From Porpolomopsis calyptriformis (lineage: Eukaryota; Basidiomycota; Agaricomycetes; Agaricales; Hygrophoraceae): a DNA stretch of 64,000 nucleotides. Positions 15,704 to 61,000 of this stretch are shown here, in pieces. The position numbers and the translations under genes are program-made. Each line of letters starts with the position of its first letter. The first letter of the stretch is position 1. The stretch spans positions 806,001-870,000 of the forward strand of contig OX621165.1 in the NCBI GenBank assembly GCA_951640195.1. Direction: 5' to 3'. The notes beneath the pieces were generated by a model. The model saw nothing but the letters and a program-made list of their open reading frames with translations. It made no database searches and had not been told where the DNA came from.

Positions 15704-17110
15704 CTACTGCTCTGAATCGTCAGTCCAAGAGAAGGGGACGTTGCTACGCTGTTGCGTCTCTGAATCATCAATAAAACTGCTCTCATACTCGTCTTCGTCT
15801 TCTGTCCCGGGTTCCGTTTCATGGCCATCATTGAGTTCTGCGAAACGGGCGCGTAATTCACGACGTCTCCGATTGGTCCACCAGTGTTCGTACGGTTCCC
15901 GGCGACCGCGATTGATGGCATGATTTTCATAGTCAGAACCCCACCCTGGGTAAACGGTGTCCCAGAGCATGTGACCATCCCAATTATATGAGGACTCATC
16001 CCCCTCCTCCTCCTCCATATACACCCTCTCGTCATCCCAGTCCGGATCCTGGTCCCAATCATAACTTAGCTCACACCCAGTACAAACCCCCTCCCAAATC
16101 TCGTGCATGCACGCTAAGCACCGACGAATCCCTCCATCTTCGACATCGAGGTATCCCAAATTCAATTGGACATTTCTGTGGACTGCGGCGTTGGGGCGCG
16201 CGGTGGACGGCGGCGTGAATATCCCGGACCAGGGATTTCTGCTATTCGTGTCACCCGGTGGACGAGGATTATCGGTGGGAGTGAGAACTCCGGGAAGTAA
16301 GCCGCTACTGGCAAGCCCCATTACCATGCTTTTCAGACCCCATACCTGCACCGGAGGTGTCTTGACGTTCGCTCGGCAATGTGGGCAGGATTTCTTCCTT
16401 GCATAGGCAGGCTGAGTGGGTCCATCGACAGGCTGAGCTGTGAACCACTGAACAAGGCAGTTGTAACAAATGATATGTCCACAAGGGGAAAGAGCGTAAG
16501 GTTTAAACATAGGATCAAGGCATATTTGGCAGGTCAATGATTGTTGGAATTGAGAAAGGAGCTGTTGGTGGTCTGTAAGGAGCTTGAGTCAATGTTAGTC
16601 GGTGAAAGATTGTGATACGAAGACAAACGCACTTTGCTTTTTGCTTCGAGTTCCTGAGTGAGCCGGATAATTTCGGCTGCTTCGGCGGACTTCGATACTT
16701 TAGTCTTGGTCTTTGCCTGATGGCGCGTTGAGTGCTCTGATTCAGATTTTGTACATCCATTGAGCTCGTAAGAATTNNNNNNNNNNNNNNNNNNNNNNNN
16801 NNNNNNNNNNNNNNNNNNNNNNNNNNNNNNNNNNNNNNNNNNNNNNNNNNNNNNNNNNNNNNNNNNNNNNNNNNNNNNNNNNNNNNNNNNNNNNNNNNNN
16901 NNNNNNNNNNNNNNNNNNNNNNNNNNNNNNNNNNNNNNNNNNNNNNNNNNNNNNNNNNNNNNNNNNNNNNNNNNNNTTCTTCGTCTTCTTTATGTCTCTC
17001 TCGGAATCCGTCGCGTCAGGTGAGAGAAATCGCTTGTTCGAATTGGTATATTTGAACGCGTTCTGTTGTGTTTCGTTGGAAGACGAAGAAGCTACAGGTG
17101 TTTGAGGCAT
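15704..17110 (-). CDS. RING-finger protein, probable E3 ubiquitin ligase, interrupted by assembly gap
   Basis: The N-terminal exon starts at ATG 17110 (MPQTPVASSSSNETQ) and runs into a 200-N gap (16976-16777). The sequence then stays open from the gap edge to 16633 (charged, coiled-coil-like: EIIRLTQELEAKSK), is spliced across 16632-16562 and continues 16561-15704. After the intron, LLSQFQQSLTCQICLDPMF opens a RING: CxxC, CGHIICYNC, a long loop, then CPHC. A second Cys pair set follows (CLACMHEIWEGVCTGC), suggesting an extra zinc site, and then a strongly acidic tail. Phases agree on both sides of the intron; continuity across the gap is inferred from strand and direction. Expected to recruit an E2 for ubiquitin transfer. 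Substrate unknown. Confidence 0.7.
16777..16976. other. Assembly gap (200 N)
   Basis: Exactly 200 N lie inside the RING gene. A round length usually means an estimated or placeholder gap, so the true missing length is unknown. Confidence 0.95.
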
Positions 17111-19007: not shown

Positions 19008-19200
19008 GATTAAAAGGCGAAGTCGCACATTGGGAATTTCCCAGCTGCGCTCCCCCCCCCCCCCCCCCCACTTTACACTCTCTGGTGCTGGTTACCTGGA
19101 GATTCTTCTTTATTTTTTCAACAGCTTGCTTTACGAACCAACCTTTACGACCTAATTTACGACTTTCGATTATTCTTCCGAACAAAACTATTCATTCATC
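19008..19200 (+). promoter_or_regulatory. Promoter and 5' leader of repeat precursor A
   Basis: An ATTAAAAGG box at ~19009, a C18 run at 19052-19069, then GTGCTGGTTACCTGGAGA and an ACAGC...TTACGAACC block. The same elements (TATTAAAAGG, GTGCTGGTCACCCGGAGA, ACAGCCGTTACGAACC) lie in the same order before paralogue B at about 21360-21480, so the 5' flank was duplicated with the gene. Confidence 0.55.
19052..19069 (+). repeat. Homopolymer C18 tract
   Basis: Eighteen consecutive C about 130 bases upstream of the start codon of precursor A. Paralogue B has an unbroken-up equivalent region without it. The length is error-prone in assemblies. Confidence 0.9.
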
Positions 19201-20331
19201 ATGGTTCAAACATCTACTCTCGCTATTGCCACCATCGCTTTCACCGCTGCCTCCTCCCTCGCTCTTCCCATGTGCGTCTCATCCGGATATTTCGCGTAAC
19301 CCTTCACAACTAACTTGACTATCGCAGAAATGAGGTCGAGGAACGCAGCTTCGTTGGAACAGAAGAAGATCTCGCCACACGCGAGCCCAATTTCTGGAAG
19401 ACTTTGAAGCAAGATCTCCCTCAGATTGCCGGCACCGCGTTGAAGGTCGCTACCAAATTTATCCGTGAGGAGGACGAGCTTGCTGCTCGTGAATACGAGG
19501 ATGAGCTTGTTGCCCGTGAATACGAGGATGAATTTGCTGCCCGTGAATACGAGGATGAGCTTGCCGCGCGTGAGCCCATGGACGAACTTGATGCACGCGA
19601 GCCCAATTTCTGGAAGACTTTGAAGCAAGACCTCCCTCAGATCGCCGGCACCGCGTTGAAGGTCGCTACCAAATTTATCCGTGAGGAGGACGGACTTGCT
19701 GCCCGCGAATATGAGGATGAGCTTGCTGCACGCGATTTTGAGGACGACCTGGCCGCCCGTGAGCCCATGGACGAACTTGATGCACGCGAGCCCAATTTCT
19801 GGAAGACTTTGAAGCAAGACCTCCCTCAGATCGCCGGCACCGCGTTGAAGGTCGCTACCAAATTTATCCGTGAGGAGGACGAGCTTGCTGCCCGCGAGTA
19901 TGAGGATGAACTTGCCGCGCGTGAGCCCATGGACGAACTTGATGCACGCGAGCCCAATTTCTGGAAGACTTTGAAGCAAGACCTCCCTCAGATCGCGGGC
20001 ACCGCGTTGAAGGTTGCTACCAAATTTATCCGCGAGGAGGACGAGCTTGCTGCCCGCGAATATGAGGATGAACTTGCCGCGCGTGAGCCCATGGACGAAC
20101 TTGACGCACGCGAGCCCAATTTCTGGAAGACTTTGAAGCAAGACCTTCCTCAGATCGCCGGCACCGCTTTCAAGGTTGCCAGCAAATTCATCCGGGAGGA
20201 GGATGGACTCGCTGCACGGGAGTATGATGATATGATTTACGGGTACGCTGTCGTCCCTCAATCTCATCCAGCTCACTGCTAATGAAGCCTTTCCCAGACG
20301 GGAGTATGCTACTCTCGATGAACTCGATTAA
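19201..20331 (+). CDS. Secreted multi-copy amphipathic-peptide precursor A with C-terminal DELD
   Basis: Three exons (19201-19271, 19328-20242, 20298-20331) give 339 aa. The N terminus MVQTSTLAIATIAFTAASSL is a clean signal peptide. The mature part holds five near-identical ~25-residue segments that start NFWKTLKQDLPQIAG and end ALKVATKFI. Each has four Lys and one Asp, and hydrophobics spaced as in an amphipathic helix around one Pro. They are separated by acidic spacers built from (E)YEDELAAR, EPMDELDAR and EEDELAAR, so every peptide is preceded by AREP and followed by R-EED. The last exon encodes REYATLDELD. The precursor resembles multi-copy peptide precursors (apidaecin, fungal alpha-factor and Kex2-processed repeat proteins), but its presumed sites are monobasic. 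A host-directed or antimicrobial role is inference. Neighbour B is a paralogue. Confidence 0.85.
19389..20242 (+). repeat. Coding tandem repeat of precursor A
   Basis: Peptide segments begin at 19389, 19605, 19794, 19956 and 20118, giving unit lengths of 216, 189, 162 and 162 bases (72, 63, 54, 54 codons). Differences in unit length come from extra copies of the 8-9 codon YEDELAAR spacer. The nucleotide sequence is almost identical between units, pointing to recent expansion or gene conversion. Confidence 0.9.
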
Positions 20332-21519
20332 AGTTTAGGTATTGGTTCACCTAAGTGCTGCTTTGTAGACTTGTATTCTCCGCGGACTATATCAGATAGT
20401 GATGTAAAGTGAAGCTCTCGGGGGGCGAATTCTCATTCAGTTTGTTTCGTTGCCATCAAGTTCAAATGCTGTATGCTCAAGGGACATGTGAAACGTAAGC
20501 TTAAGTTGTTAAGCCGTCAGCCATCATAATATACGGAGCCTTGACACCTGCGCCGTTATGATGGTGGCGGTTGCATGTATTGTGTGAGAGTGGTTAACTC
20601 CTTCAGAATTCATGCCAGTCCATTCTGCTCATCAGTTTCTAAACGACAACGTGAAAGCTGGCGAAACATCGACGAAAAAAGCAAGGAACCGGCTGGAGAT
20701 ACCAATGGTAGTGAGGCATATGAGATTTAGGCCCTGCTCATACCCACACGCCTTGCCAAAAAATATCGGCAAATCCTGGCCGCGACAGTCTCCTGCTTAT
20801 GAACACGATCTCGTTGAGATTAAATTACTGCTCCCTGGTTGATATATGCATAGGGTCAGTGGTGTTAGGGTAAAAAGTCTCATAAGATGGATGTCGGTAT
20901 GTACATATCAGCTGCGGTGATTGGTTTTTGATTTCATGATCTGTGTCGTTTTGTGCACCCAGTATGTTCCGTTGGGTATCAACTGAGATTTCGAGGGCGA
21001 TGTTCAAGCACGAAGGACGTAAGTCATGGAATTCTCCAAGTGCAATGTTTTGGTGTGCAAGGCGAAACCGAGGTTGGGGATGACATGATACCAAAAATAT
21101 TCGAAACCACGAGTGCCCGAAATCTCGTTATGTAAGTTATTTGTCAAAGTTGTGTCGACTGCCTAAAAAGTCTGAGTGGCTTGGTGACAGAAACTTGGCC
21201 GGGTGCGAGACAATTTCGAGCCAAGGTAGCAAGGTAAGCGTGATATTCTCTCACAACTTCTCTACCATCAAACATTTACATCATGGTATCAATTCGGGGG
21301 GGATCCTACCCTTGCCTCTCCCATTCAGTTCGCCGCAGTGAACACTCCATGGCTCTCCAGTATTAAAAGGAGGGGGAACTCTCCGAAAAGCCTCAGCTGT
21401 GCTCACTCCCACATTCCCCTCAGTGCTGGTCACCCGGAGACTACTCTCATCCTAAGTTTAACAGCCGTTACGAACCCATTTTGCCATTTTTCGACTTCAC
21501 TCACCAGTATTCACTCGCC
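20332..21519. other. Intergenic between the two paralogous precursors
   Basis: The two genes' 3' flanks share GGTTCAC and GTAGACTTGTATT (A: ~20340-20380; B: ~22555-22590), so the duplication probably includes the 3' UTR. The rest (20600-21300) has no supported gene. The last ~160 bases hold the promoter of B. Confidence 0.5.
21360..21519 (+). promoter_or_regulatory. Promoter and 5' leader of repeat precursor B
   Basis: TATTAAAAGG at ~21360 lies 160 bases before the ATG, followed by GTGCTGGTCACCCGGAGA and ACAGCCGTTACGAACC. These match, in order, the leader of precursor A. Confidence 0.55.
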
Positions 21520-22542
21520 ATGGTTAAAACTTCCACTGCCGCTATTGCTACCATCGCAGTCAGCGCTGCGACTTCCTTCGCTCTTCCCATTGAGTACATT
21601 TTATATCCCCCGAATCCAACTCTGTGGTTCCTAACTATTATTTCTTTTACAGCATCGCTTCACGGGAGCCTTTATACCTGCCAAAGAATCCTTTCTCCAA
21701 CCCAACAGGGAATCCTTGGTCCGGCCCATCTTTGCCCTTCCCAAAGCATTCTTGGTCCACTCATATCGGGCGTGAGGAAGAAGAACTTGCCGCACGGGAG
21801 CCATACCTGCCGCCAAAGAATCCTTTCTCCAACCCAACAGGGCATCCTTGGTCCGGCCCATCTTTGTCCTTCCCAAAGCATTCTTGGTCCACCCTTATCG
21901 GGCGTGAGGACGAAGAACTTGCCGCACGGGAGCCATACATGCCCGCCAAGATTCCAACAGGGCATCCTTGGTCCGGCCCACCTTTGTCCTTTCCAAAGCA
22001 TTCTTGGTCCACCCTTATCGGGCGCGAGGACGAAGAACTTGCCGCACGGGAGCCACTCATGTCCGCAAAGATTCCTACCTCCAACCCAACAGGGTATCCT
22101 TGGTCCAACCATTTAGGACATCGTTTGCCCGTGATCAAGCCCTCTTTGTCCCCCCTTCTCGGGCGCGAGGACGAAGAACTTGCTGCACGGGAGCCATACT
22201 CGCCCGCAAGGAATATTCTCTCCAACCCAATGGGATATCCTTGGCCCCCCCCAATAAGGCAGACTTGGTCCCCAAAGAGGCAGCCTTTGTCCACCCTTAT
22301 GGGGCGCGAGGACGAGGAACTTGCTGCACGGGAGCCCAACTTCTTGAAGACCGTCAAAAAGATCGGAGTCGGCGCTCTCAAGTTGGCGAGTAACTTCATC
22401 CGCGAGGAGGATGAACTTGTGGCACGGGATGCTGATAACTTGATTTACGGGTGCGTTCCCATATTTCCGTTTCTGGCAGTAGATGTGGATGAATGACATC
22501 TTCCTCAGGCGGGAGTATGCTTACCTCGATGAGCTTGATTAA
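21520..22542 (+). CDS. Secreted Pro-rich repeat precursor B with amphipathic peptide and C-terminal DELD
   Basis: Three exons (21520-21593, 21653-22450, 22509-22542) give 301 aa. The signal peptide MVKTSTAAIATIAVSAATSF is clearly homologous to that of A, and both introns sit at equivalent places and phases. The body has five Pro-rich units of ~30-40 residues (pattern Y.P.KNPFSNPTG.PWSGPS, then FPKHSWSTLIG), each ending G-R and followed by the acidic spacer EDEELAAREP. Unit 3 is shortened, and units 4 and 5 have diverged. The last segment is not Pro-rich: it starts NFLKTVKKIGVG and ends KLASNFI. It is Lys-rich, amphipathic and related to the repeated peptide of A. The tail is REYAYLDELD. It looks like a mixed-cargo peptide precursor; function not known. 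Confidence 0.85.
21653..22335 (+). repeat. Coding tandem repeat of precursor B (Pro-rich units)
   Basis: Five imperfect units end at each GAAGAACTTGC..CACGGGAGCC spacer. The first two to three are nearly identical at DNA level; the last two differ strongly in the Pro-rich cargo while the spacers remain conserved. This is the reverse of neutral decay and suggests the spacers are the constrained part. Confidence 0.8.
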
Positions 22543-26803: not shown

Positions 26804-29735
26804 ATGACCAGCAGTTCGACTAGTCTTAGCAATTTGACCGTGCATGTGGACCACGGTGTGCTGAATATTGTTGGGGGTCACCAAATTACAAATATTCTGC
26901 CAGGTCAGTACCCTTCAATCTCTTCTGGGCCTTCTTCAATGTGATTGGATTATTCCCCAACTGTGAGACGATAAGTACTTCCTTGCTATCATCTGCCCAG
27001 TTGTCGTCTGGTAAGAGGCTGTGACCGATCTGTTTTTGTGTTCACACATCGTTTGATCTTCGCTTCTGACTTTTATCAATCATCCCAGACCCGAGCCATG
27101 CAAACCGCCAGGGGGCAGCGCCCCGATTTATCAACGATGCTCCCCTTGATCTGCTCTCTGTGCATTTCACCGGCCGCGGAAAGGACTTGGAGTTTTTGGA
27201 ACAAGCATTTGAAGGCAGGGTCCAGAGCGATATACCCAGCCGTTGTGCTGTCTATGGCATGCCAGGCTTGGGGAAGACTCAGCTGGTACTGCGGTACGCA
27301 AAGATATCAATCGATCAGCATCGATATTCGTACATCTTTTGGATATCGGCCACCAGCTTGGATAAGTTGAACCAGGGCATAGCGGGGATTCTCCACCTCG
27401 TTGGACATCAAGATCGCTACCATCAAGAACAGAATGCGAAACTCACAGCTGCGCGACTCTGGTTGGAAGAATGTTGTGCTGATTGGCTGCTCGTCTTGGA
27501 TAACGTCAACAGGACTACTCTCGATTTCATACGCATGCACCTCCCTCACAGCAATAAGAAAGGGAACATCCTTTTCACCACACGGACAGCCGATGTTGCT
27601 GAAGTTCTGGTTAATGCCGCAGGAGAACGACATCCGACGCTCCAACTTACGCCCTTGGGGTTACAGGATACAGCAAAACTTTTCTTCAAGGACGCGGGCA
27701 TCGAGGTGGCGATCGTAACGCCTTCTTTGTTAACTCAAGCCGAGGAGCTCGTCAAATGCCTTGGTTGCTTGCCTCTTGCCGTTGTTCAGGCAGCGTCGTT
27801 CATGAAACAAACCTACAAAAACCTCGACGATATTCTGAGATTATACGAGAACAAACAAAGAACAGAAGTGTGTTCATATCCACCTTGTCGTTAATCATCA
27901 ACATTTATCCATTATCACAGGCAATTCGATGGGAAAACGATTTATCTACTTACGAGGAACGATCTGTGGCCGCGGCATTTACTCACCAGTTCGATCAACT
28001 GCTTCAGGAATCTCGCGATATTAGTAATTTCCTCAAAATGGTGTCTTTCTTCGACCCAGAAAGCATCCCGCTAGAGATGATTGTTGCGGGAGGCGAAGAG
28101 TGGTTACGCGGACAAGACAAACCACAGCCTGTTCCATCTCGGTCTGTTAATACTATGCTACGAAACGTCAAGACATGGGCTCGGCCGCGACGCTGGAAAT
28201 CCGGTCGTACGAAAACTCAAGGCGAGGGCGCTAGTGAAGGCTCTCAGATATCGTTGGAGTTTTCCTCGTTGATTAACCTTATCCTCTCCCCAATTCAATT
28301 CCAGATGGGGATACAGAAGCTCCAGAGCCTATCTCTTGTTGAACAACGATCCTCTCTCGGAAAGCCTTCGTTATGGATGCACGATTTAATCCAATTCATG
28401 GTGCAAGAAGGTGCAAAGAAGGAAGAAGCTTACCAAGACTGGCTCCGGGTGTCAGTGTTACTTGTTTGTGGCGCATTTAGACGCATAGGCGACCCTATAT
28501 TGCCACAGCAATGGGTGGAATATGAGAAGTTCATACCGCACATACGATCATTGGAACAGCGAGGGAATGAGGCGCATGATACGAACCTTGCGCTGACCCA
28601 AGCTAACACAAAGATTGCGGTATACTTGGCGAATCGCGGAAGGTACGATGAAGCCGAGGAACTTTTGAAAAAAACCCTGACAGTTATGAACAAGCGGCTA
28701 GGCGCTGGCCACCAGGATACGCTCTGGTCCTCGGACAGCCTCGCCGTTGTGTATCAGCGGCAAGGGCGGTACAATGAGGCCGAGGAACTACACAAGCAAA
28801 GCTTGGCGGCTAAGGAGGAGGAACTTGGCGTCAATCACCAGGAAACTCTCCAGTCGATGGACAACCTTGCCGTTGTGTATCAATGGCAGGGGCGGTATAA
28901 GGAAGCCGAGGAACTGCACCAGCGAAGCTTGGCGGGTAGGGAGAAACAGCTGGGTGCCCATCACCCCGAAACACTTACTTCAATGAATTCCCTTGCGAAT
29001 GTGTACCGCTTGCAAGGACGATTCAGTGAAGCAGGGGAATTGCACAAGCAAACCTTGGCAAGCACCACGAAGCAGCTAGGTCTAGATCATCCTGGCACAC
29101 TATTGTCAATGAACCTGCTTGCGAATGTGTATCGATTGCAAGGACAACTCAGCAAAGCTGAAGAGTTGTACGAGCAAGCACTAGCAGGCAGGGAGAGGCA
29201 ACTAGGTGCCGGGCACCCAGACACACTGGAATCCGTGAACTCCCTTGCAAATACCTATCGATTTCAGGGGCGACTCAACGAGGCCGAAGAGCTGTACAAG
29301 CGCGCCTTGGCGGGTAGGGAGAAACAACTAACCGCCGATCACCCTGACACGCTCACGTCTGCGAACTCCCTCGCTCTTGTGTATCGATTGCAAGGACGGC
29401 TCGCCGAGGCTGAAGAACTGCACAAGCGAGCCTTAGCAGGCAGAGAGAAGCAGCTAGGCATCGACCATCCGGAGACGCTTACCTCGATGTACTCCCTCGC
29501 ACTTGTGTATGAATCGCAAGAGCTGTTCGGCAAAGCCGAAAAACTTTACAAGCAAGTCTTGGCAGGTAGGGAGAAGCAGCTAGGCCTCGAGCATCCAGAG
29601 ACGCGTACATTGGTGAACTCCCTCACACATATGTATGAATCGCAAGGGAGGTTCAACGAAATGGAAGAACTTCAAAGGCGAGCATCTGTGGGCCAAGAGA
29701 AGCCGCTAGGGTTCGATCACCCCGTACGCCAGTGA
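26804..29735 (+). CDS. NB-ARC / TPR NOD-like receptor
   Basis: Three exons (26804-26903, 27089-27867, 27921-29735) give 897 aa. The N-terminal ~30 residues (NLTVHVDHGVLNIVGGHQIT) are of the short Gly/Asn-rich type seen at the front of basidiomycete NLR-like proteins. The NB-ARC ATPase follows, with P-loop VYGMPGLGKTQL (~88-98), Walker B WLLVLDNVN, sensor GNILFTTRT and the GLPLAV-equivalent LGCLPLAVVQAA. A winged-helix-like linker (FDQLLQES...WMHDLIQFMVQ, with the MHD-type WMHD) leads to about nine kinesin-light-chain-type TPRs of 42 residues. NB-ARC-TPR proteins in fungi are candidate receptors in non-self recognition and programmed cell death. The ligand is unknown. Intron 1 (185 nt) is unusually long and may hide a further small exon. 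Confidence 0.85.
28600..29720 (+). repeat. Tandem TPR repeats, 126-base period
   Basis: About nine units of 42 codons carry the pattern LA.VYR.QGR..EAEEL.K..LA.REKQLG.DHP.TL. Central units are similar enough at DNA level to allow recombination and copy-number change, as is common for the sensor part of fungal NLRs. Confidence 0.85.
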
Positions 29736-58000: not shown

Positions 58001-61000
58001 CCCGGCCCGGTAAGTTTTCAGAAGTACATTGGCTTGGGTCATGTTACGAGTACTGGTTTTAGACTGTTGTTCAAGTCCCGTTGTTCGATACCTTGATGGA
58101 CATTCTACGGGTAACTCTTTTTCCAAATTTCTGAATGTAAAACTAAAGGGTGCTCAGGAAAACCGACTAGCCCAACTAGCCACTGTCGAACAACAAAGAG
58201 AGCTTATGAGGTACATGAGGGGTTTAAACGAGTGGCTTGAACGTGATGTCCACGATCGTCAGGCCTCACTCCGAGGTGTTACAGCGCGTGTAGATCAGCT
58301 AAGAAATGATCTTGGGCGACTTAGTATGGGGATGCGACCGCCAGGTGAATTCCCTTCTGTTTGTAAATTTGCCGACCTGTGTTCATGTTGTGAGCTAGGA
58401 GATGGCCAACCCGGCCAGACATTCGTTATTCCTCAGTTTCCGCCCCCAGCCGTGGGACCTGAGCCTGCCCGTCCTCCCCCCGGATTTCAACCATACCCTG
58501 ACCAATCAGGTGTTGTACCCCCTGTCATCCCTTTCCCTGTGCCCGAAAGGAGAGATAGAACACCTAGTCCACCTTTTTCGCCTGTTATTCCCGGCCTCGT
58601 GGGTCTGGGACGAGCCGGAGGAACGCCAGCAGTTGTGCCCGGTCCCATTCCTTATGCACCACCTCCCGAACCTCGCCGCGACCGAGAATCCGAAATTTAT
58701 ATCCCCTCAGAATCCTCCGAAAGTCCAAGACGCTTTGCCCAGAGACCTCGTCGAGACGGTGAAGTAAGCATTGTACCCATGCCAGCGACCTCGGAGACTA
58801 GTACCAGTGGGACTCGTACCCCCGAACACGAACATATCCCCGGCATTCCCTTAGTCGTACCTGATGTATCGAGACCCTCCCGTTCTAGAACTTCATCGGC
58901 TAGAATCCCTACCGGTCCTGCGTTTGCCGATGTACCAGGTCCTATGGATGGTGTCCCAGGACCCCCAGGCGTCCAACCAACCTATGTCATCCAGCAACCT
59001 CCGCAACAAGGCCCCATGGTACCAGTGCCTGCACCTGGACTGATGCCCGTGGGAGGCTTCCAGCCCCTCCCCGGGGTGGCACCTACTATCCAACCTCAAG
59101 TCATTGAGGTCCGCACGCATCCATCCCGAGGGCGTACGCCATCCAGTGAAAGAGATCGGGGCCACCGGTCGCCGCCCAGGGGAAGAGACCGCTCACGGAT
59201 TAGGCGCAGACGCCGATCACCTTCGCCCAGTTCAGAGGGGGACGGATCCCCGCGCCGACATTCACCGCGACGGCGTAGACGTCGCTCCTATTCGCCTTCT
59301 TATCGTTCTTACTCTTATTCTCCTGGTCGTCCAGTCCCCTTCCTACCGTCATATGGTCCTGGCTTAGGCCATGGTTTTGGTTTTCCACATGGTCTTCGTC
59401 GATCTCCTGTGATGGTTGTTGGTGGCTCCCGCACTCCTTCTTCCGGGAGACGCTCTCCAATCATTCATTACCCACCCCCAGCCCCAGCCCCGCCAGTAAT
59501 CATTGCCCCCGACGGCGGGAGACGTTCAAGAGACCGCTCTCCTGTGTTTATGGCACATGATCCCACTATGTTGCCTTCACGTTATTCCCCTGAAGGTCGC
59601 CGCACCCCTCCAATAATTCTGCAGCCAACGGACCTCGGACACATCCCACATGCTCCATCGGGTCGAACACTTACCCGAATCCCACCAACCGAACATGAAC
59701 CTGCCTATGAGTATTCTCGACCATCTCCCCCGCCGCATGTCCGTCGCTCTCGTTCCTCACCCCCCCCTATGCAACCAACCGCAGTCGGTTATCCTGAAAC
59801 CCGTAGGCGTTACTCCCCGCGCCGTCCTCGTTCCCACAGCCCGGACTATAGTCGATCCCCCCCTGATGATAGGTACCGTCGTCGATGGCGCAGTCCATCT
59901 CCTTATGAGAGATATCCTTACGATAGACGTAGACCGTTGCCCTCACGGTATCGGTATCGCCCCCGCTCCTTTAGTACTCCTTCCTCCGGAGAAGGACATT
60001 ATTCCCCTAGGTTCCGCTACGGTCCTCGCACATATGCTTCATCCTTGCGTGGTCCCGAAGATGAACGTGATGAAGGTGTTCCCCATCACATCGTAACCGT
60101 TCCTTCACACCGTACACGACTACCTCCTCGTTCTTCGCCACCGCCATCCGAAGACGATCATGACATAGGCAGTCCGCGCATCGTGACAGTTCCTTCACGC
60201 CGTACACGACTACCCCCTCGTTCTCCGCCACCGCCGTCCGAAGACGAGCACGACATGGGCAGTCCGCGCATCGTAGCAGTTCCTTCACGCCGTCCACCCC
60301 GAAGACACACAGGCCCTCCAACAGTAATTCGTCCCAGTTCTCGAGGCAGTCAAGAATCTACCCCTCCAACGTTCATCACTTTGGGTCGAGATGGGCGAGG
60401 TCCTGGGGCTCTTTCGACGTATGAACCAGAGGAGGATCTCTCTCGCGCTTCCTCTCCTCCACGTGGTAAGTGTTAAATAGTCCAACCGTGGTTTAAAATC
60501 ATCGTTTTAACCTCTCTATTCAGCTTATCATCCTGCGTATAGGCCCCCGCCCCGATCAACGATGGAGCATGACGAAGGGGCGACCCCAAGGCCCCGTGTG
60601 CCTAGCGAACTTCCCCAGATTACACCAGCCCCAACTACCCGTGAAGAAGACACAAGACGTCCCACAGTACATCCTTCCACAGAGGATAGGGAAGCCTCAA
60701 GGCGATCGCCTAGTATTGTCAGGAGTATTGTCCACCGCGTTCCTCCTCCTCGCAGCGCAGAGGGACCAGATTTGCGTTATGGCGATGCTGAACGAGATCG
60801 AGATGATCGATTCCGTGAAGTAGAGGGAAGATTAATTCAATCTGTACAAACCGCTGCCGAGGCTGAAGATCAACGAGAAGGTGAATTCCGTCGCAACGAG
60901 GAGGAAAGGAATCGCTTGTTTTTGGAGCACGAGGACAGAAGAGACGACGAATCACGCCAGCGACGTGACCAAATTTGGCATGAATTAGAGGGTCGCTTGG

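Follow-up and report, generated by a model that had tools for sequence, protein, structure and literature searches.

A putative kexin-processed polyprotein with five near-identical cationic segments and a DELD tail in Porpolomopsis calyptriformis

In the genome of Porpolomopsis calyptriformis we have identified a gene, here gene A, whose product carries five nearly identical lysine-rich segments separated by acidic spacers and closes with a DELD tail, together with further genes of a similar plan. Judging from the layout of the sequence, the product of gene A is quite probably processed into peptides, and the reading that we favour, with fair confidence, is that of a kexin-type polyprotein cut after single arginines to release a membrane-active peptide. 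Across the family, the constant element is the package, namely the 5′ leader, the signal-like start, the arginine-acidic spacers and the tail, and the helical peptide of gene A is one cargo among several. Gene A and its neighbour, gene B, lie in the window, by which we mean the whole 64,000-nucleotide stretch analysed (contig OX621165.1, positions 806,001 to 870,000), and their coordinates are given in window positions.

Gene A and its five cores

The coding region of gene A occupies 19201–20331 on the forward strand, from the ATG at 19201 to the end of the stop codon at 20331. Splicing out two phase-2 introns, placed by reading frame and GT..AG borders (19272–19327, 56 nt, and 20243–20297, 55 nt), leaves three exons and an open frame of 339 aa. 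Exon 1 (19201–19271) encodes the hydrophobic N-terminus MVQTSTLAIATIAFTAASSLALP, which by eye resembles a signal peptide, and exon 3 (20298–20331), delimited by the gene model and the charge split, holds the C-terminal tail REYATLDELD, with the boundary after its arginine, and the stop.

The core unit EPNFWKTLKQDLPQIAGTALKVATKFIR comprises 28 codons and, on unit comparison, is found in five forward-strand copies at 19383–19466, 19599–19682, 19788–19871, 19950–20033 and 20112–20195; the first four specify the same protein, the fourth with synonymous differences, and the fifth differs by two amino acids (L>F, T>S), so that the five almost identical segments of about 25 residues described earlier were recovered. 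At the DNA level the repeats form five 244-nt copies with 72–100% identity to the reference copy, spaced by 216, 189, 162 and 162 nt, and Tandem Repeats Finder gave them scores of up to 849. Pooled over the ten pairs of cores, pS was 0.225 and pN 0.012 (ratio 0.054), which indicates that the peptide has been kept nearly constant as synonymous sites drifted.

The charges are distributed in the way that had been claimed. The 25-residue NFWK..KFI segment has a computed net charge of +3, each spacer unit between the cores one of −2 or −3, and the tail one of −4. Spacer units measure 8–9 residues (for example EEDELAAR, EYEDELAAR and EPMDELDAR), and the first block (19467–19598, forward strand) strings together five of them, 44 residues in all, each ending in AR. 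All lysines beyond the start sit inside the cores, and 23 of the 24 arginines precede an acidic residue. The amphipathic helix that had been postulated also held up in computation, as the helical moment of the core is 0.489, a value reached by only 0.2% of 2000 shuffles of the same residues, and AlphaFold2 run without an alignment folded a 32-residue piece around copy 1 into one helix (mean pLDDT 89); its model of the entire repeat exon was uninformative (pLDDT 50). By computation, then, the core combines a net positive charge with an amphipathic helix, as in cationic helical antimicrobial peptides. The sequence supports the polyprotein of the first-pass annotation, of secreted type and with five cationic amphipathic units and acidic spacers.

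A PDB sequence search with the 25-residue core returned no match up to an E value of 10. Pfam gave nine weak families for the gene A exon, taken as chance: eight fell below the cut-off, and the best, DUF3222, reached 29 bits against a cut-off of 25 by summing over the repeats, no single stretch passing. One family for gene B, below its cut-off, was likewise taken as chance. When 20 ORFs of the window, A and B included, were scanned, the clear domains were ordinary ones (TPT transporter, RING, NB-ARC, TPR, SET and RRM). Elsewhere in the window, frames with NB-ARC and TPR repeats at 27070–29732 contain 126-nt tandem repeats and suggest an NLR-like fungal protein, a 90-nt tandem repeat of 2.3 copies (60089–60297) lies within a long open forward-strand frame (58014–60473), and the region at about 16530–17100 translates to X, reading as masked or unknown bases.

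Gene B and related genes elsewhere in the genome

Gene B (21520–22542, forward strand, 301 aa), a paralogue that starts 1.2 kb beyond gene A, begins with the similar N-terminus MVKTSTAAIATIAVSAATSFALP, has phase-2 introns at the same two places (21594–21652 and 22451–22508) and ends in REYAYLDELD; the first-pass annotation had noted neither this paralogy nor the DELD end that the two genes have in common. Its cargo is of two kinds. Five proline-rich units of 32–39 aa (21666–22307, forward strand; for example EPYLPPKNPFSNPTGHPWSGPSLSFPKHSWSTLIGR), with E[ED]EELAAR spacers between them, show no amphipathicity when their moment is compared with shuffles, and a single unit, EPNFLKTVKKIGVGALKLASNFIR (22332–22403, forward strand), placed by gene model and moment, resembles the A core and is an amphipathic cationic helix. 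The annotation had named homologues that keep the spacers and lose the amphipathicity as evidence against itself; the proline-rich cargo of gene B is of this sort, yet the last unit of the same protein is not.

Genome-wide, the spacer pattern [DE]ELAARE occurs at 12 places in 33.5 Mb, all within A and B, against none in the control. The pattern DE[LF]D-stop, searched as codons, matched 37 places against 9 in the reversed control; 16 of these, which end in TGG, were dropped, and the upstream sequence of all 21 places with a stop was inspected, by a long three-frame reading for seven of them (L034, L035, L037, L051, L057, L058 and L061) and by a motif count as well. Six of the 21 are genes A–F, four of them new beyond A and B, and one is L034. 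Upstream of the other 14 nothing pointed to a related gene, with zero counts of [LIVMF]x[AG]R before an acidic residue in 1400 nt upstream, a count which alone does not prove absence, since gene E fails it too. L034 (L063; C4 near 366363) has a His-rich secreted frame, then a stop and codons for LVEREFELDELD; it might encode a DELD effector interrupted by an intron, but it was not counted as a member because a plausible intron leading to the DELD codons was not found.

Genes C–G lie on five contigs other than that of A and B, which brings the family to six contigs in all. Gene C (C4) carries one proline-rich and one long cationic piece, gene D (C13) three copies of a 55-residue unit beginning QFGLQSIFGALTKGVSRGPG, gene E (C11) three [AS]AGKTA... 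and two AKGGSRSKW... units split over exons, and gene F (C14) a Met/Gln-rich piece and an NFLEKAG... piece. Gene G (C8) has a signal-like start and arginine-bounded pieces; its cargo is SLESCGGSGCSEESKHHHKLKSGVKVAYKVGTTAAKLALIR, and its tail is RDFEVTESD in place of DELD. All of A–G begin in a signal-like manner, have their introns in phase 2 and encode short pieces, most of them acidic, that are delimited by arginine; the DELD end is found in A–F and the two-part leader in A–E and G. In all seven models the hydrophobic N-terminus is followed, by eye, by x-P-[IV]. No [LIVMF]x[AG]R before an acidic residue occurs in the upstream segments of gene E, and in F this motif is weak, so the membership of these two rests on the leader (half of it in F), the start, the introns and the tail.

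The leader consists of CAGCTGYGCTC, a gap of 12–32 nt and GTGCYGGTYACY, and starts about 125–160 nt before the ATG in A–E. In gene A it spans 19042–19096 on the forward strand (CAGCTGCGCTC, 32 nt, GTGCTGGTTACC), starting 159 nt 5′ of the ATG, and in gene B the motif pair spans 21394–21434 on the same strand. Neither half is a marker by itself, given that CAGCTGYGCTC occurs at 28 places in the genome against 21 in the reversed control and GTGCYGGTYACY at 27 against 24. Together, on one strand and no more than 60 nt apart, the two halves occur at seven places, before A, B, C, D, E, G and H, where chance predicts 0.0007; as the pair was defined on A–E, the new ones among the seven are G and H. 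In fact, gene G was located through the leader alone, before its protein had been read, and turned out to be the same kind of precursor. Gene H (C8, L071:256-792) has both halves and encodes a secreted-type protein of 178 aa without internal repeats, whose end, GRRRELSSWMEDEE, is again an acidic tail after arginine; it is treated here as a relative in regulation only. In the 64-kb window, with up to three mismatches in all, the pair appears twice only, before A and before B. Gene F has the second half and a degenerate first half, and was missed by the scan with up to three mismatches. Eight GTGCTGGTCACY places at C14:269–281 kb looked like an array of the same family, but this was rejected for the six inspected, which precede a different secreted family (MHLPT..) sharing half the leader only. 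That region (C14:271300-281000, L072) holds a tandem array of genes for the MHLPT[IV]FTFVLLVNAA.. family with TATA-like boxes and GTGCTGGTCACY, one gene having two copies.

All 15 introns in the A–G models are in phase 2, the models being open frames with GT..AG borders fitted by eye and homologous introns not counting as independent cases. In A–G the first intron comes after the signal-like start; in A–F the last one lies at or beside the arginine with which the DELD tail begins. A cargo exon flanked by phase-2 introns can be copied or exchanged and the frame kept, and gene E exhibits such a duplication. The cargo types include amphipathic helices, proline-rich peptides and glycine-rich peptides. 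Measured by the best 18-residue moment, six of 11 cargos exceeded shuffles at the 5% level (A1-4, A5, the B helix, the C helix, E1 and G, the first two being near-identical entries) and five did not (both proline-rich ones, D, E2 and F). Amphipathicity is thus no trait of the family, as the proline-rich cargo of gene B also indicates, and the split points to a family that delivers varied cationic cargo.

Arginine boundaries, processing and competing readings

Over A–G, 71 of 118 arginines stand before E or D, against none of 92 lysines, counts that are not independent observations because repeats were copied. By gene the proportions are 23/24 in A, 14/18 in B, 10/15 in C, 10/17 in D, 5/19 in E, 5/19 in F and 4/6 in G, so the pattern is strong in A–D and weak in E and F; in gene H, outside this group, 1 of 7 arginines and 2 of 11 lysines precede E or D. 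Among the 71 sites, P4 is L, F, I, V or M in 57 and P2 is A in 35. Dibasic pairs, overlaps counted, number 0 in A (after residue 20), 2 in B, 1 in C, 0 in D, 5 in E, 7 in F and 1 in G. We split A–D and G in silico between R and E or D, and also after a spacer arginine before Q, A, N or S. The long cargo pieces came out at +2 to +7 and the short ones of 3–13 residues mostly at −1 to −4. Those that carried 0 or +1 were what remained of the N-terminus in B, D and G, a further two pieces from G and a single cargo fragment of B. E and F gave a similar picture, with some pieces fused. After its arginine the tail measures 9 residues in A and B and 8 in C, D and G, with a charge of −4 in all five. In size and in the sign of its charge, the DELD tail of A–D matches a further spacer.

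Given such a layout, the signal peptide would direct the gene A polyprotein into the secretory pathway, where a Golgi kexin-type protease would cut after single arginines at the LxAR↓E, FIR↓E and YGR↓E boundaries (↓ marking the putative cut). The EP at the front may then be trimmed off by a dipeptidyl aminopeptidase and the R at the end by a Kex1-type carboxypeptidase, by comparison with yeast alpha-factor and candidalysin. The product would be five copies of a lysine-rich amphipathic helix of about 25 residues, NFWKTLKQDLPQIAGTALKVATKFI, and the acidic spacers, the DELD tail among them, would offset the positive charge of the cargo within the cell and bear the cut sites. Once free, the peptide would most likely act on the membranes of competing microbes or host cells. 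If the polyprotein is indeed processed, we consider a membrane-active or antimicrobial role somewhat more likely than not; such an activity, or a host-directed one, is an inference here as in the first-pass annotation. The C-terminal boundary of the core, FIR↓E, is found without the LxAR context, and were it left unused the peptide would retain part of a spacer. Nor is EP a pure mark of the core, since the EPMDELDAR spacers start with it too.

This reading as a whole is argued for by the near-identical cores, their amphipathicity, the arrangement of arginines before acidic residues, the charges of the split pieces, the swapping of cargo with exon plan and tail kept, the leader that led to gene G, and the matches to the proteases. 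These matches are partial: a kexin-type P domain at C7:1704877 covers 58 of 86 positions and DPPIV_N at C5:1978560 lies in three pieces, both with in-frame stops that were taken for introns. Vogt et al. produced basidiomycete KEPs in Pichia, and the products appear to have been cut after single arginines (PMC9769878). In Candida Ece1, Kex2 cuts after Arg61 and Arg93 and Kex1 then trims, both being needed (PMC5784256).

The same processing could instead yield a signalling or host-directed peptide, resembling an alpha-pheromone or a symbiosis effector, that acts on a receptor or a plant rather than on a membrane. We hold this to be unlikely, though it is the alternative to be taken most seriously: the R↓EP boundary of gene A resembles the Kex2-plus-STE13 layout noted by Le Marquer et al. 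in basidiomycete KEPs (PMC6339444), the DELD-tailed proteins of Piriformospora (Serendipita) indica are root-induced (PMC3192844) and have promoters with common motifs (PMC13039781), and Laccaria MiSSP8, which Umemura cites (PMC7329392), derives from a repetitive precursor that Kex2 cuts and is required for mycorrhization. Yet the cargo differs wholly between paralogues sharing the leader, which fits an arsenal better than a single receptor ligand. Moreover, a 25-residue, strongly amphipathic helix of charge +3 is unusual among pheromones, and the A core would make an atypical one.

Tandem repeats of alternating charge are common in surface proteins, and one might imagine a structural role, either for the intact secreted repeat protein or for pieces that assemble on the hypha like the Rep1 repellents of Ustilago, peptides described as arising from a kexin-cut repeat precursor and governing properties of the hyphal wall. 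This we regard as improbable, for the confinement of lysines to the cores and the setting of nearly every arginine of gene A before an acidic residue form a layout made for cutting, and the cargo of C, F and G is repeated little or not at all. A dikaritin-type RiPP precursor, whose core is excised and then cyclised by UstYa enzymes, is still harder to accept. Gene A encodes a multi-copy secreted precursor and UstYa (PF11807, DUF3328) domains are present in the genome, but none was found among the 20 window ORFs scanned, and the two matches (C11:942793 and C3:508972) are far off: even the nearer, on the contig of gene A, is about 316 kb away from it. The A core lacks tyrosine as well, a residue that Umemura gives as mandatory for that cyclisation (PMC7329392); distance and lack of tyrosine together make cyclisation unlikely. 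Those two matches may mark dikaritin clusters of their own, unrelated to the A/B locus. Finally, the low complexity of the spacers and the antisense frame of gene A, which is likewise open (373 aa), could be what a chance or decaying repeat without a product would leave. We give this almost no credence, considering that the differences among cores are mostly synonymous, that six more genes have a similar exon plan and tail, and that a leader is shared.

Known precursors and the DELD tail

The claim of the first-pass annotation that no described family shows this combination was too strong, since multi-copy, kexin-cut secreted precursors, the KEPs, are a described class (Le Marquer 2019, PMC6339444; Umemura 2020, PMC7329392; Vogt 2022, PMC9769878), and the tail resembles that of the DELD effectors of P. 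indica. KEPs are widespread in fungi, with functions mostly unknown. They have a signal peptide, to which the signal-like start of gene A would correspond, and, as in gene A, near-identical peptides in tandem, cut sites that are basic and, here and there, an XP dipeptide following the cut. Where at least three repeats of at least eight residues are asked for, gene A has five 28-residue units; where a dibasic site is asked for between repeats (KR, RR or KK in PMC6339444; KR, KK, RK or RR in PMC7329392), it has a single Arg before Glu or Asp. Lacking the dibasic site, gene A stands outside the published definitions and fits the idea only. Two further differences from KEPs are its DELD tail and its blocks of acidic spacers, which reach 44 residues.

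Other likenesses are of layout. Candida Ece1, the source of candidalysin, is likewise a fungal polyprotein from which Kex2 and then Kex1 free a membrane-damaging peptide, but its site is the dibasic KR and its peptides are described as non-identical, one being the toxin. We know of no DELD tail in Ece1. In the yeast alpha-factor precursor, as in A, a basic cut site is followed by Glu-X dipeptides (LDKR↓EAEA there, LDAR↓EP in A), with KR in place of AR and a 13-residue ligand. The apidaecin precursors of bees are multi-copy antimicrobial precursors with short, peptidase-trimmed acidic spacers of the type RREAEPEAEP (PMC11549390), and the cargo of gene B is proline-rich too; here again the likeness is one of layout, as these are animal precursors with a dibasic site and 18-residue peptides rich in Pro and Arg.

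The DELD effectors of P. indica, as described in 2011, end in RSIDELD, are 101–135 aa long with regular His and Ala, and include 17 induced in symbiosis (PMC3192844). They resemble A–F in an acidic DELD tail after Arg and a variable middle, and by description also in being secreted, as the signal-like starts would predict for A–F, and in having conserved upstream motifs, to which the leader of A–E and G might be likened. DELD itself is present in A–F, the tail of A being REYATLDELD and the nearest to RSIDELD being RSYEIIDELD of gene E; gene A, in contrast, has 339 aa, no His and internal repeats. Strong motif conservation was reported in 2026 for six P. indica DELD promoters (PMC13039781), which have a motif of their own, set beside the leader of A–E and G by description rather than by sequence; the likeness to P. 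indica as a whole is one of motif and layout, drawn from descriptions. In the literature collection searched, no paper joined DELD, KEX2 and fungal.

The tails of A–D, together with RSYEIIDELD of gene E, suggest from the sequences that the DELD tail and the arginine-acidic spacer may be the same element. Perhaps, and we put this forward tentatively and at somewhat less than even strength, the DELD tail is the last unit of a monobasic arginine-acidic spacer, and DELD proteins would be a branch of a large, co-regulated, cargo-swapping family of fungal peptides, with a signal exon, exchangeable phase-2 cargo exons and a tail exon, that releases a cocktail of helical and proline-rich peptides and of which members such as gene A have been missed by dibasic surveys. 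The function of the DELD motif was called unknown in 2015 (PMC4620400), and a tail that looks like a removable spacer offers a direct test of a question open in 2011 and in 2015. The findings also suggest that fungal peptide precursors are undercounted by KEP surveys relying on dibasic sites, and that members without any common sequence in their cargo can be located through a conserved 5′ leader. One genome mixes helical and proline-rich cationic peptides, and gene B does so within one precursor.
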